This document shows, piece after piece, positions 11,370 to 15,139 of a stretch of DNA of 64,000 nucleotides. Source of the stretch: an uncultured Desulfovibrio sp. (GTDB taxonomy: Bacteria > Desulfobacterota > Desulfovibrionia > Desulfovibrionales > Desulfovibrionaceae); contig CAJXYU010000005.1 in assembly GCA_913063155.1 (NCBI GenBank), positions 248,001 through 312,000 of the forward strand. Direction: 5' to 3'. The notes below the pieces were generated by a model that saw nothing but the letters and a program-made list of their open reading frames with translations, ran no database searches and was not told the DNA's origin. Position numbers and translations under genes: made by a program. The first letter of the stretch is position 1. Every line of letters starts with the position of its first letter.

Positions 11370-11714
11370 GTGGAAATTCTCGTAATCACGATTCATGTAC
11401 TGGCTTGTATCTTCCTCATCACCGTCATTCTGCTCCAGTCCGGACATGAAGGAATGGGTGTCATCTTTGGCGGCGGCAGCAGCTCCATGTTCGGCAGCAC
11501 TGGCGCCGGCGGCCTGCTGGTGAAGATCACTGCCGGTCTCGCCGCAGTTTTTCTCATTACTTCCTTGACTTATAATGTCCTTACGGGCAATAAGACTGCC
11601 GGCGGCGACTCGGTCATGATGTCCAAGCCCGCCGCGACCGCACCTGCACCGGAAGCAGCCAAGCAGCCGGGGGTCACTTTCAAGGACACCGAGCAGGGCA
11701 AAAAGTCCGAGTAA
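11370..11714 (+). CDS. secG: Protein translocase subunit SecG
   Basis: Small inner-membrane subunit of SecYEG, 114 residues, GTG start. There are two hydrophobic helices (about 3-21 and 50-70) with the conserved connecting segment LLQSGHEGMGVIFGGGSSSMFGSTGAGG. A hydrophilic Ala/Pro-rich tail follows, which is longer than the minimal family core. A tRNA-Leu gene begins 15 bases after the stop with no terminator between, so the tRNA is probably processed from the same transcript. secG followed by tRNA-Leu(GAG) is also seen in enterobacteria (secG-leuU). Confidence 0.93.
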   Translation: MEILVITIHVLACIFLITVILLQSGHEGMGVIFGGGSSSMFGSTGAGGLLVKITAGLAAVFLITSLTYNVLTGNKTAGGDSVMMSKPAATAPAPEAAKQPGVTFKDTEQGKKSE

Positions 11715-11729
11715 GGATCATTGACAGAC

Positions 11730-11817
11730 GCCGAGGTGGTGGAATTTGGTAGACACGCTGTCTTGAGGGGGCAGTGGGAGAAATCCCGTGGGGGTTCGAG
11801 TCCCCCCTTCGGCACCA
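11730..11817 (+). tRNA. tRNA-Leu (anticodon GAG), copy 1, with one extra D-loop base
   Basis: A class II tRNA of 88 bases. Acceptor strand GCCGAGG pairs with CTTCGGC, followed by discriminator A and an encoded CCA. The anticodon stem CTGTC/GGCAG closes the loop TTGAGGG, giving anticodon GAG (reads CUU/CUC). A long variable arm (GGGA...TCCC) and a T arm with TTCGAGT are present. The D loop has three T residues before GG where copy 2 has two; this fits an extra base at position 17a, so the tRNA may still work. Confidence 0.95.
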
Positions 11818-11824
11818 TGAAAGC

Positions 11825-11858
11825 AAAAGGGTTACGGCAAAAGCCGTAACCCTTTTTT
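11825..11858 (+). terminator. Terminator after tRNA-Leu copy 1
   Basis: AAAAGGGTTACGGC pairs with GCCGTAACCCTTTT around AAAA, followed by T. Almost the same sequence follows copy 2 of the tRNA. Confidence 0.9.
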
Positions 11859-11883
11859 ATGTTGGAAAATCTTGGAGATCGTC

Positions 11884-12315
11884 ATGATACGCAGAATGAA
11901 CTTTGAAGATGTGGACTCCATCGTGGACATCTGGTTCGAGGCTTCCGTAAAAGCGCACCGTTTCATGAGCCGCGAATTCTGGGAAGAGAAGAGGGCGGCC
12001 ATGCATGACATCTACATTCCCAACTCCGAGACCTGGGTGGTCGAGGAGCGGGGACGTGTGGTCGGATTCTATTCCTTTGTCGATGAAACCCTGGCCGCCA
12101 TCTTTGTGCAGCCCGAATGTCAGGGGCAGGGCTTGGGAGAGCGGTTGCTCAAGCACGCCAAATCCCGACGGAACCGTATCGAACTTTCCGTCTATGTGGA
12201 AAATGAGCCTTCGTACCGGTTTTATTGCAAGCATGGGTTCGTGCTCGTGAGGGAGCAACTGGACGAAAATACAGGTCATTCCGAGTACCTGATGGAATGG
12301 CGCGCGCAGGGCTGA
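11884..12315 (+). CDS. GNAT-family acetyltransferase (YjaB-like) between two tRNA-Leu genes
   Basis: A 143-residue N-acetyltransferase. The start ATG 11884 is backed by GGAG at 11874-11877. Family features are DIWFEASVKAHRF near the N-terminus, the acetyl-CoA loop AIFVQPECQGQGLGERLL, and the C-terminal SYRFYCKHGFVLV. The layout resembles E. coli YjaB, whose natural substrate is unknown. The gene is enclosed by two near-identical tRNA-Leu plus terminator units, so it may have arrived by, or been trapped in, a duplication at the tRNA locus. Codon use looks like the surroundings. Confidence 0.8.
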   Translation: MIRRMNFEDVDSIVDIWFEASVKAHRFMSREFWEEKRAAMHDIYIPNSETWVVEERGRVVGFYSFVDETLAAIFVQPECQGQGLGERLLKHAKSRRNRIELSVYVENEPSYRFYCKHGFVLVREQLDENTGHSEYLMEWRAQG

Positions 12316-12344
12316 AAGAAAGTGGGAAAAAATGAAATTAACTG

Positions 12345-12371
12345 TTGACATTTGAGCGAGATAAGTAGAAA
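12345..12371 (+). promoter_or_regulatory. Possible promoter of tRNA-Leu copy 2
   Basis: A perfect -35 TTGACA at 12345-12350 is followed after 15 bases by TAGAAA (12366-12371), a four-of-six -10. Short spacing makes it weak, but tRNA copy 2 follows a terminator and needs its own start. Confidence 0.4.
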
Positions 12372-12395
12372 AAGCTCTCTCGCTTCAAGCGCCAC

Positions 12396-12482
12396 GCCGA
12401 GGTGGTGGAATTGGTAGACACGCTGTCTTGAGGGGGCAGTGGGAGAAATCCCGTGGGGGTTCGAGTCCCCCCTTCGGCACCA
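12396..12482 (+). tRNA. tRNA-Leu (anticodon GAG), copy 2
   Basis: 87 bases, identical to copy 1 except for lacking the extra T in the D loop (GAATTGGTAGA). Acceptor GCCGAGG/CTTCGGC, anticodon loop TTGAGGG with GAG, class II variable arm and encoded CCA are all present. This D loop is the usual form for tRNA-Leu. Confidence 0.96.
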
Positions 12483-12490
12483 TGGAGAAT

Positions 12491-12523
12491 AAAAGGGTTG
12501 CGGCAAAAGCCGTAACCCTTTTT
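12491..12523 (+). terminator. Terminator after tRNA-Leu copy 2
   Basis: AAAAGGGTTGCGGC pairs with GCCGTAACCCTTTT around AAAA. It differs from the first copy by one A-to-G change that keeps pairing as G-U. Confidence 0.9.
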
Positions 12524-12545: not shown

Positions 12546-12577
12546 AAAAAGGCCCGTCCAAAAGGACGGGCCTTTTA
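12546..12577. terminator. Bidirectional terminator ahead of the exported helical-repeat gene's 3' end
   Basis: AAAAGGCCCGTCC pairs with GGACGGGCCTTTT around AAAA. Symmetric A and T runs let it end the minus-strand gene at 12600 and back up the tRNA terminator. Confidence 0.88.
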
Positions 12578-12599: not shown

Positions 12600-14732
12600 C
12601 TAGTACGGATAGGCGATGGCGCTGTTGTCCGAAGAGGAAGAGCCTTTCTTTTTGCCGGTCTTGGAGTTGATGGCCGACAGGCGCGCTTTGGCGGCCTCGC
12701 GTTGCTCCTTGGTGCTGGCGTTCTTGATGACCGTGTTCAGAAGCTTCTTGGCGGTCTCGTAGATGCCGCGCTTTTCGTAGATCATGGAGGCCCGATACAT
12801 GGCCGTGAGAGCCCAGATGTTCTGTTCCGGATACTGCCAGGCGAGATGCAGGTAGTAGTCCAGGGCCTGGTCCGTGTTGCGCATGGCCTGTTCGCCTTCG
12901 CCGAGCCAGAAAAGGACTTCGGCCTGCATGGCCGGGGTCAGGCTTTCATGGGCTCTCCATAGCTGCAAAAGCTGGTCGCGGGCCTTGAGAAGCTCGCCGC
13001 GCTGCTGCATGAGCAAGGCCATTCGCAGGCGGGTGAAGGCAGGAATGGGCTCGCCTACGGCCACCAATTTCTTGTAGGTGTCCAATGCCTTTTCCTGCTT
13101 GCCGAAAGCCAGATCCATGCGGGTTTTGGCTTCAAGCCAGCGGGACTTGTCGGCACTGCTCAGAGTCTTGGGATTCAACCGTGAGAGGTAGAACTGGGAC
13201 ATGGGCATGTCCTTGCCCGCAATGGCCTGGTCAGCAAGGTAGAAAAGGCAGTTGATGCCGAAGGACGTGTCTCGGAACAGGAAGGCGGCCCGTTTGGCCA
13301 ATTCCTCCTGGGGCTTTTCATTGAGCTCCTGTTGCCAGTAGGCCAATACCACAAGGCGGTCCATGGGCCATTTCTTTTGGGCTGCGGAACGCAGGCTGCG
13401 CTTGCTTAATTCCGCCCAGAAGGGGGCCTCGATGGCAGGGCGCAGATCCCTGCCTGCGGCTCCGGAGAGCTCGGACAGGACAGGGTAGAGCTTGAAGGCC
13501 CGAACAGGGGAAGAGGGCATGACTTCGTTCAGTTCGCCATTGAAGGCAATGAGTCCGGCCACCTGCAGGGACACGGGCAGGGCGCGTTTGTCTACCTGTT
13601 TCCATATTTCAGCGGCGGAAGCCATGTCATTATTCATAAGCGTGAAGGCGAGCTTGAAGCTTTGAAGCAGGGTGATGGTCTGCTCGGAAATGAGCAGTGA
13701 GCCGAGCTCCTTGTCGATGACGGCCTGTGCTTCCTCCACGGGCATGGACAGGGCTTTGTTGCGGAACTGTTTCCATGCCTCGGCCCCGGAATTGCCCAAG
13801 ACCCATTCCTGGCGGTCCGCGCCGAATGGGGCCAGGGTGTGACCGGACCAGAATGCTTTTGCTTTCAGGTAGTTGCCCTTTTCGTAGATTGCCAGATCAC
13901 CGGGGCGATCACCGGTCTTGATGAAGTTCACAAGGGAGGACCAGAATTGACGGACAGGCGCTTGTCGGATTGTTCCGGCCTCGGTCTCTGCCTTGTCGAA
14001 ATTTTCCAGCGATGCATCTGCCAGGGCGCGGGCCATGGCGTTGCGGTCTTCAGCGTTGATGAACGTAATGGGCTTGCCGGCCTCGTCCAGTTCGGGTTTG
14101 TTTTTTGTCGTAGGGAGCAGGGTGGCATTGCCTGTGGATTCGTAAAGATAGACATTGCCTGCCGTTTTCCAGAACGAGTCGGACCATACGCTTTGGGCGG
14201 TGCTCAGCATTTCGCCGATGACCTCGAGTTGTGAGCGGCGGGACAAGGTGTAATTGGCGGCATAGGTCCAGTACATGTGCCTCCAGACGTCTTTCCAGGC
14301 TTGGTCCAGATTTGGCTCGTTTCTGAACATGGAGCGCATTTTGCCCTTGTCGGCCATGTAGTTTGAGGCCTGGGTAAACCAGAGCACGGCCTTGGAAAGG
14401 TCGCCTATGGCCCGATGGGCCTGGCCGCCGTACCACAGGCGCATGGCTTCGGAGGCGTTGTCGTCGAAAGCCGGTGTCATTTCGACGATTTCAAGCGTTT
14501 TGCGGGGCTTTCCGAGTTGTAGATAAACTTTGGCGCGCTTGAGAATGGAGTCAGGCGTGTTTTCCTGTTCCTTCCTGGTGATTTCCTTTTCCAGGCGGTC
14601 ATAAGCCTCGTAGTTCTCAAGCCAGCTTTCAAAGGATTTTTTCGGAGCTTTGGTCTGGGCAAGGCTCATGGATGTACTCAAAATGAGTCCCAGGAAAGCG
14701 AGCAAGGCCACGGCGTGTTTTCTTTTCATCAT
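12600..14732 (-). CDS. Exported protein with TPR-like helical repeats, function unknown
   Basis: About 710 residues. ATG codons at 14732 and 14729 precede a clear signal peptide (KRKHAVALLAFLGLILSTSMSLAQ), so it is periplasmic. The rest is strongly helical with TPR-like pairs: KRAKVYLQLGKPRKTLEIVE, GQAHRAIGDLSKAVLWF, EVLFWLGEGEQAMRNTDQAL, MYRASMIYEKRGIYETAKKLL. The superhelical layout recalls the N-terminal part of soluble lytic transglycosylases, but no transglycosylase catalytic domain follows. The C-terminus is a Lys/Ser-rich tail ending AYPY. It stands alone between terminators. A scaffolding or envelope-assembly role is a guess. Confidence 0.75.
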   Translation of the reverse strand: MMKRKHAVALLAFLGLILSTSMSLAQTKAPKKSFESWLENYEAYDRLEKEITRKEQENTPDSILKRAKVYLQLGKPRKTLEIVEMTPAFDDNASEAMRLWYGGQAHRAIGDLSKAVLWFTQASNYMADKGKMRSMFRNEPNLDQAWKDVWRHMYWTYAANYTLSRRSQLEVIGEMLSTAQSVWSDSFWKTAGNVYLYESTGNATLLPTTKNKPELDEAGKPITFINAEDRNAMARALADASLENFDKAETEAGTIRQAPVRQFWSSLVNFIKTGDRPGDLAIYEKGNYLKAKAFWSGHTLAPFGADRQEWVLGNSGAEAWKQFRNKALSMPVEEAQAVIDKELGSLLISEQTITLLQSFKLAFTLMNNDMASAAEIWKQVDKRALPVSLQVAGLIAFNGELNEVMPSSPVRAFKLYPVLSELSGAAGRDLRPAIEAPFWAELSKRSLRSAAQKKWPMDRLVVLAYWQQELNEKPQEELAKRAAFLFRDTSFGINCLFYLADQAIAGKDMPMSQFYLSRLNPKTLSSADKSRWLEAKTRMDLAFGKQEKALDTYKKLVAVGEPIPAFTRLRMALLMQQRGELLKARDQLLQLWRAHESLTPAMQAEVLFWLGEGEQAMRNTDQALDYYLHLAWQYPEQNIWALTAMYRASMIYEKRGIYETAKKLLNTVIKNASTKEQREAAKARLSAINSKTGKKKGSSSSDNSAIAYPY

Positions 14733-15139
14733 TCTTTTCAGATTCCACGTTCGGGTTAAATCGGGTGGGCCGGTTTCAGTTGGCCCGGAAAGCAAATGAT
14801 TAGATACCCGGAAGGGGATATTTTTTCAAACTGATTTCCACTGCGTATTTTTGAAAGTTTACATAATTTACATTATGAGACATTGGCACAAGATTGCGAG
14901 AGGGCTTGTTATATGTAGAGATATCAACTTGAATGTTTGGTTTACCCTTTGCTTTTCACAGTATCTTAAGGCAACGGATAAAAAAAACGGATTGGGACTT
15001 TTCAGTGGATCTGTCGACGTTATTGCAGGAATTTCGATTCTGAGCCGTTTTACCCTGCTTGTTTGATTCATGGCTCATCAGGAAAAGAAAAAGCCCGCTT
15101 ATGCGGGCTTTTGGGGGGCAGATCGGATATCGGGGTTTT
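14733..15139. other. 407-base non-coding stretch
   Basis: AT-rich. It holds the upstream region of the minus-strand helical-repeat gene and the terminator of the dapL-folK-YHS transcript at 15085-15113. Short open frames on both strands (for example 14851-15066 on the plus strand) lack ribosome sites and recognisable similarity, so I do not call them. A TGGCAC...TTGC pair at about 14883 resembles a sigma-54 site but its spacing is one base short. Confidence 0.6.
15085..15113 (-). terminator. Terminator of the dapL-folK-YHS operon
   Basis: AAAAGCCCGC and GCGGGCTTTT pair around TTAT. Read on the minus strand the hairpin is followed by TTTTTCTTTTCC. Confidence 0.85.

Follow-up and report, generated by a model that had tools for sequence, protein, structure and literature searches.

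We analysed a window of 64 kb (G000:C5:248001-312000) from a 4.3-Mb source genome (G000) related to Pseudodesulfovibrio. ARAGORN predicted two tRNA genes in this window, both tRNA-Leu(GAG) and both on the plus strand. According to domain annotation, the genes upstream of the locus are a GNAT gene (putative rimI), pgk, tpiA and secG. The locus comprises the following features:

11370-11714, plus strand: secG, the last protein gene before copy 1 (Pfam PF03840, 8.4e-18).
11730-11817, plus strand: tRNA-Leu(GAG) copy 1, 88 nt, with an extra T in the D loop (ARAGORN; RF00005, 46.0 bits).
11825-11856, plus strand: intrinsic terminator of copy 1 (fold of 11818-11862, -23.1 kcal/mol, z -6.45).
11884-12315, plus strand: GNAT acetyltransferase gene, YiaC-like (PRK10562; Pfam PF13508, 8.7e-16; NCBIfam NF007853).
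12345-12395, plus strand: probable promoter and leader of copy 2 (TTGACA 51 nt 5' of the tRNA; -10 uncertain).
12396-12482, plus strand: tRNA-Leu(GAG) copy 2, 87 nt, with a normal D loop (ARAGORN; RF00005, 48.3 bits).
12491-12522, plus strand: intrinsic terminator of copy 2, with one G-U pair versus A-U in copy 1 (hairpin sequence, folding).
12600-14795, minus strand: TPR protein gene, the right-hand neighbour of the locus (ORF and domain annotation).

This layout bears out what an earlier note had read from the letters, namely two near-identical tRNA-Leu(GAG)-terminator units flanking a GNAT gene. The tRNA genes, which start 666 nt apart, are duplicates of each other, and direct comparison revealed a single difference, the T that copy 1 carries in excess (GGAATTTGG versus GGAATTGG). 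The terminator hairpins are identical at 31 of 32 bases and the 5' flanks are unlike each other, also as described before. The spacers between CCA and hairpin (7 bases in copy 1, 8 in copy 2) are alike in the first two bases only; thus, the repeat unit consists of the tRNA, a short unlike spacer and the terminator. A search of the whole 4.3-Mb genome retrieved no third site resembling the terminators with up to 3 mismatches, and the occurrence at just two places within this limit rules out the terminator as a genome-wide repeat. Automatic annotation captured the locus in part: default cmscan listed copy 2 alone, not copy 1, and a site scan listed three terminator-like sites, the copy 2 terminator not among them. 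RNA folding provided no useful separation between the two tRNAs. The stretch that separates copy 2 from the TPR gene contains, at 12547-12576, a perfect palindromic hairpin of 13 bp that looks like a two-way terminator.

Among the GAG genes compared, the extra T was found only in copy 1, which the tRNA model scores slightly lower than copy 2. The exact longer-loop pattern occurs in 6 of 348 genomes of the class, copy 1 included. The other five matches are all tRNA-Leu, with anticodons CAG (two) and TAA (three), which suggests that the additional base is probably tolerated. It presumably lengthens the stretch from A15 to G18 by one base, with the bases required for leucylation left in place, so that a mild or no effect on function is likelier than its loss. 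In E. coli, A15-U48, G18G19 and A20a are essential for leucylation, and tertiary contacts between D loop and T loop matter, according to PMC9976931. The extra T may also be a sequencing error, such as a homopolymer error in the assembly.

The tRNA gene that follows secG directly on the same strand begins 15 nt after the stop codon, which leaves no room for a separate promoter in between. Copy 1 is therefore probably cotranscribed with the secG operon and then processed from the operon RNA, although a promoter may lie inside secG. This tight spacing recurs at 12-17 nt in 31 of the 32 genus loci measured (G017 is not among them), and the gap spans 7-138 nt in the loci of other genera read. The exception, G009, gave -36, and the computed 36-nt overlap of secG with the tRNA at this locus (L041) represents either a frame difference or a script artefact. 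As for copy 2, a TTGAC motif sits at a similar place 5' of the gene in 12 of 14 two-copy genomes, being located further upstream in G015 and absent in G012. In the source genome, which holds 53 tRNA matches in all, a hand count of 30 loci revealed TTGAC or TTGCC 40-68 nt upstream of 22 of 36 distinct tRNA genes. An automatic consensus promoter scan of the window reported none. Together, these motif positions suggest that copy 2 probably has its own promoter. The cell would then express one of its copies through a housekeeping operon and the other independently of it.

To place the locus in its lineage, we searched all 36 genomes of the genus (g1) and 24 outgroup genomes, from which seven loci were fetched. 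Of the 36 genus genomes, 33 have a tRNA-Leu(GAG) gene 3' of secG; no such secG-linked gene was found in G008, G014 and G029, which are 81-82% complete. All seven outgroup loci (16 kb read) have it as well, with one tRNA-Leu(GAG) each, which makes this the widely conserved copy of the two, in agreement with the previous remark on its position. In 14 of the 33 genomes, another GAG gene stands 125-10,795 nt further downstream; these 14 include G017, whose copy 1 is broken by a contig end. The remaining 19 carry one GAG gene at the secG site, and G001 combines a single copy there with a second GAG gene elsewhere. The fetched downstream sequence contained the TPR gene in 22 of the 33 genomes, at a distance of 121 to 9178 nt from the last tRNA. 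Some single-copy genomes exhibit an acceptor-stem mismatch in the secG-linked tRNA, at positions that we take to be T5-T68 in G021 (L053) and A5-C68 in G013, G027 and G033 (L045, L059 and L064).

Multiple copies also occur beyond this genus. By hand count, at least two exact matches to the GAG-tRNA pattern occur in 50 of 199 order genomes sampled from a larger group; these matches are not all at one site, the figure for G017 includes broken pieces, and the pattern misses variants, leaving 57 of the 199 genomes without any match. In a related genus, g25, all 14 loci fetched hold two to five tRNA-Leu(GAG) copies at secG, and G163 and G145 likewise hold two. In genus g18, four of the six genomes with loci read have three copies at another site plus one at secG; G111 has a copy elsewhere besides the one at secG, and the only site read in G189 lacks secG. 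In G181, G156, G155 and G168 (L140, L142, L144 and L146), three GAG copies with near-identical terminators extend across 8-14 kb at a second site, spread among protein genes. The tRNA pattern, otherwise found in Pseudodesulfovibrio and kin, also had an exact match on a contig labelled candidate division KSB1 bacterium (L076), which is possibly a binning error.

The protein encoded between the copies scores above the curated NF007853/PRK10562 cut-off (132 versus 125 bits, NCBIfam), and this family score assigns it as YiaC-like. The closest solved structure by sequence is E. coli YjaB (2kcw, 4.3e-15). E. coli YiaC has protein lysine acetyltransferase activity. YiaC-like GNAT matches at 1e-15 were retrieved from 7 of the 36 genus genomes, in four of which the gene lies elsewhere, and a GNAT gene sits between the tRNA copies in only 3 of the 14 two-copy genomes (G000, G023 and G009). 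This distribution does not support the proposal that a GNAT segment caused the duplication or was captured by it. The G000 and G023 proteins are 65% identical, and the poorly resolved gene tree does not settle the grouping of the G009 gene with them. Four g25 genomes also place a GNAT gene between tRNA copies, but of another, YjaB-like subfamily that groups apart in the tree; the one of the four run on NCBIfam matched PRK10514 best, with 131.4 bits, just under the cut-off of 134. Orthology of the inter-copy GNAT genes of the two genera was accordingly rejected. A GNAT scan of named genomes confirmed no relative, and a functional link between GNAT and tRNA is not supported.

Comparing the secG locus in relatives, a check that the earlier note had named with wide conservation of the arrangement as the refuting outcome, separated two parts of the arrangement: the tRNA pair is widespread in part of the genus, but the pair plus GNAT is not. 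We then mapped copy number onto a tree built from four neighbouring proteins, with 33 rows from the genus and 7 from the outgroup. The first genus branches, (G009,G031), (G017,(G000,G023)) and G015, are all two-copy, with very different DNA between the copies, and the single-copy genomes are nested. This speaks against the recent duplication proposed before. A two-copy ancestor requires 5 changes and a one-copy ancestor 6, so a single origin of the pair would be favoured by one parsimony step only, with a tie if losses cost double. We consider that the duplication is probably older than the genus radiation. A wider tree of 77 rows, built with a quick method, leaves open both the order of the first genus branches and the position of g25 relative to g1; it has 7 changes between multi- and single-copy states and thus does not support a single family-wide origin. 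Inter-copy DNA is homologous within clades. In G032, G013 and G033, a homologue of the segment between the G015 copies sits 3.6-6.0 kb after the single tRNA, which indicates that copy loss in these genomes was not a simple recombination between copies.

The similarity of the two copies follows a different pattern from that expected of position-matched descent. Both copies are complete in 13 of the two-copy genus genomes; they are identical in 9 of these and differ by one base in 4 (G000, G024, G025 and G035). Quartets made from pairs of these 13 genomes (G017 was omitted because the contig end breaks its copy 1) grouped copies by genome in 39 cases and by position in 3, with 36 ties, out of 78. 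Similarly, the 91 quartets of g25, for which copies 1 and 2 only were used, yielded 61 groupings by genome, 8 by position and 22 ties. Paralogues are thus more alike within a genome than position-matched copies are between genomes, and the many ties reflect the low divergence of the tRNAs. In G139, an identical variable-arm insertion is present in each of the two copies. Since copies group by genome and not by position, they seem to have been homogenised, most likely by gene conversion as far as can be judged from sequence comparison; re-duplication would mimic this pattern.

The terminators provide a more ambiguous signal. Aligning the 45-nt 3' flanks of the two G000 copies gave a score of 28.0, whereas 500 letter shuffles reached 4.5 at most. 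However, copy 1 and copy 2 flanks of different genomes score 10.4 on average (sd 10.6), with values as high as 38. The reason is that one style of terminator is found repeatedly across the genus, which makes terminator likeness alone weak evidence. Within genomes, the scores range from 28.0 (G000 and G028) down to 1.5 (G019). The two terminators of G023, the nearest relative, are unlike each other (4.0 versus 28.0 in G000), and this genome may have lost a likeness that was older. Moreover, the unlike bases between CCA and hairpin in G000 imply that one simple conversion tract does not cover everything.

The 3' flanks further uncovered exchange between positions. Across five related two-copy genomes (G011, G024, G025, G034 and G035), cross-position comparisons score 35-38 versus 24-26.5 within genomes. 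In G024, G034 and G035, the copy 1 terminator is more similar to that of G025 copy 2 (38.0) than to the copy 2 terminator of the same genome (24.0), and the reverse was also seen, with the G025 copy 1 terminator closer to copy 2 of the other three. Beyond the terminators, an aligned region of ~4.9 kb, made up of three main pieces with 76-79% identity, follows copy 1 in G034 but copy 2 in G025. The 3' flanks of the two copies have swapped places between two lineages. An exchange with breakpoints in the tRNA repeat, or alternatively a three-copy intermediate, would explain the swap; the right-hand junctions lie outside the tRNA, and either route may apply. The copy 1 flank of G024 also matches copy 2 of G028 (37) and G012 (33), and part of the terminator likeness may be convergence, given that one hairpin style recurs in the genus.

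Collectively, these data are best accounted for by an old tRNA-Leu(GAG) pair, repeatedly homogenised by recombination while the DNA between the copies turned over, a reading to which we assign a probability of roughly three in four. Copy 1, which stands last in the pgk-tpiA-secG operon, would be the ancestral gene, most likely produced by processing of that transcript, and copy 2 a paralogue slightly downstream, most likely with a promoter and a terminator of its own. Repeated gene conversion between them would have kept them alike, and it is this homogenisation by recombination that would make the pair look freshly duplicated. The same short repeats would have permitted copy loss and 3' flank exchange, and the DNA between them would turn over, holding here the YiaC-like GNAT gene. 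The extra T would postdate the last conversion and is probably nearly neutral. What looks recent at the locus is this T and the sameness of sequence, the latter best accounted for by conversion between old copies.

Of the alternatives, independent and repeated duplication at the secG-linked tRNA in many lineages, each event young and with little conversion, fares best, yet we regard it as unlikely. The family loci read range from one to five copies, the order-wide count gives 50 of 199 genomes with at least two exact-pattern GAG genes, promoters and terminators differ among the g25 copies, and parsimony (6 versus 5, or equal) hardly opposes it. However, the similar location of TTGAC before copy 2 in 12 of 14 genomes, the homologous inter-copy DNA within clades and the two copies in all three first branches speak against it. 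A recent local duplication in the source lineage, one that took in or resulted from a GNAT-bearing segment, is more improbable still. The single-base differences between the tRNAs and between the terminators would suit it, as would the patchy occurrence of the YiaC-like gene and a GNAT tree without resolution on the G009 gene. Nonetheless, the pair exists in 14 of 33 genomes, the three first branches included, other genomes have it with other inter-copy contents, the three genomes with pair plus GNAT include two whose GNAT proteins have diverged to 65% identity, and G023 displays the same order at 76% DNA identity, which largely refutes this explanation.

That the two tRNAs form the direct repeat of an island driven by an integrase, with GNAT as remnant cargo, is very unlikely: tRNA genes are classic integration targets and the inter-copy cargo varies from 0.1 to 10.8 kb, but the repeat comprises whole tRNAs plus terminator instead of a 3' piece, and none of the PF00589 matches listed falls between two copies. 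The G000 inter-copy segment holds one GNAT gene and no integrase match among those listed, and both tRNAs are whole, unlike a partial tRNA att repeat. A strong PF00589 match some kilobases downstream, near the locus in most genomes, was taken for a putative housekeeping xerD and not for an island integrase. More tentatively, the Desulfovibrionaceae tRNA-Leu(GAG) genes after secG could conceivably act as recombinase-free anchors, forming arrays of two to five near-identical tRNA-terminator units whose cargo genes come, go and are exchanged by homologous recombination. If so, the tRNA gene would both mark a site of variable genes and be kept uniform by that site.

The locus can be set against known systems. 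E. coli leuU reads GAG. The secG-leuU region of that bacterium was reportedly described by Mohanty and Kushner in 2008 as one transcript with a Rho-independent terminator, the tRNA being cut from it. The likeness resides in a leucine tRNA gene accompanying secG; the locus described here differs in its upstream genes, pgk and tpiA, and in the second tRNA copy downstream. The serTGA duplication of P. fluorescens similarly added a copy of an existing tRNA gene, but, in that report (PMC7661048), it was a laboratory tandem duplication of large segments, unlike the short repeat with unlike DNA in between found here. As in gene conversion among E. coli rRNA operons, documented in PMC8022953, repeated RNA genes exchange sequence within a genome, although the repeat is far shorter here (about 90-135 bp). 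Our search of the open-access literature found no published description of the locus, a weak negative, and no paper on Pseudodesulfovibrio with tRNA-Leu.

Together, these are ordinary duplicated tRNA genes with unusually visible traces of tRNA-anchored recombination. The pair can look brand new though it is probably old, since homogenisation hides its age, which warns that sequence identity is unsafe for dating tRNA duplications. With one-copy, two-copy and flank-exchanged forms of a single site in one genus, copy loss and conversion become testable, as does the value to the cell of a further copy, under its own promoter, of a tRNA that otherwise belongs to a housekeeping operon.
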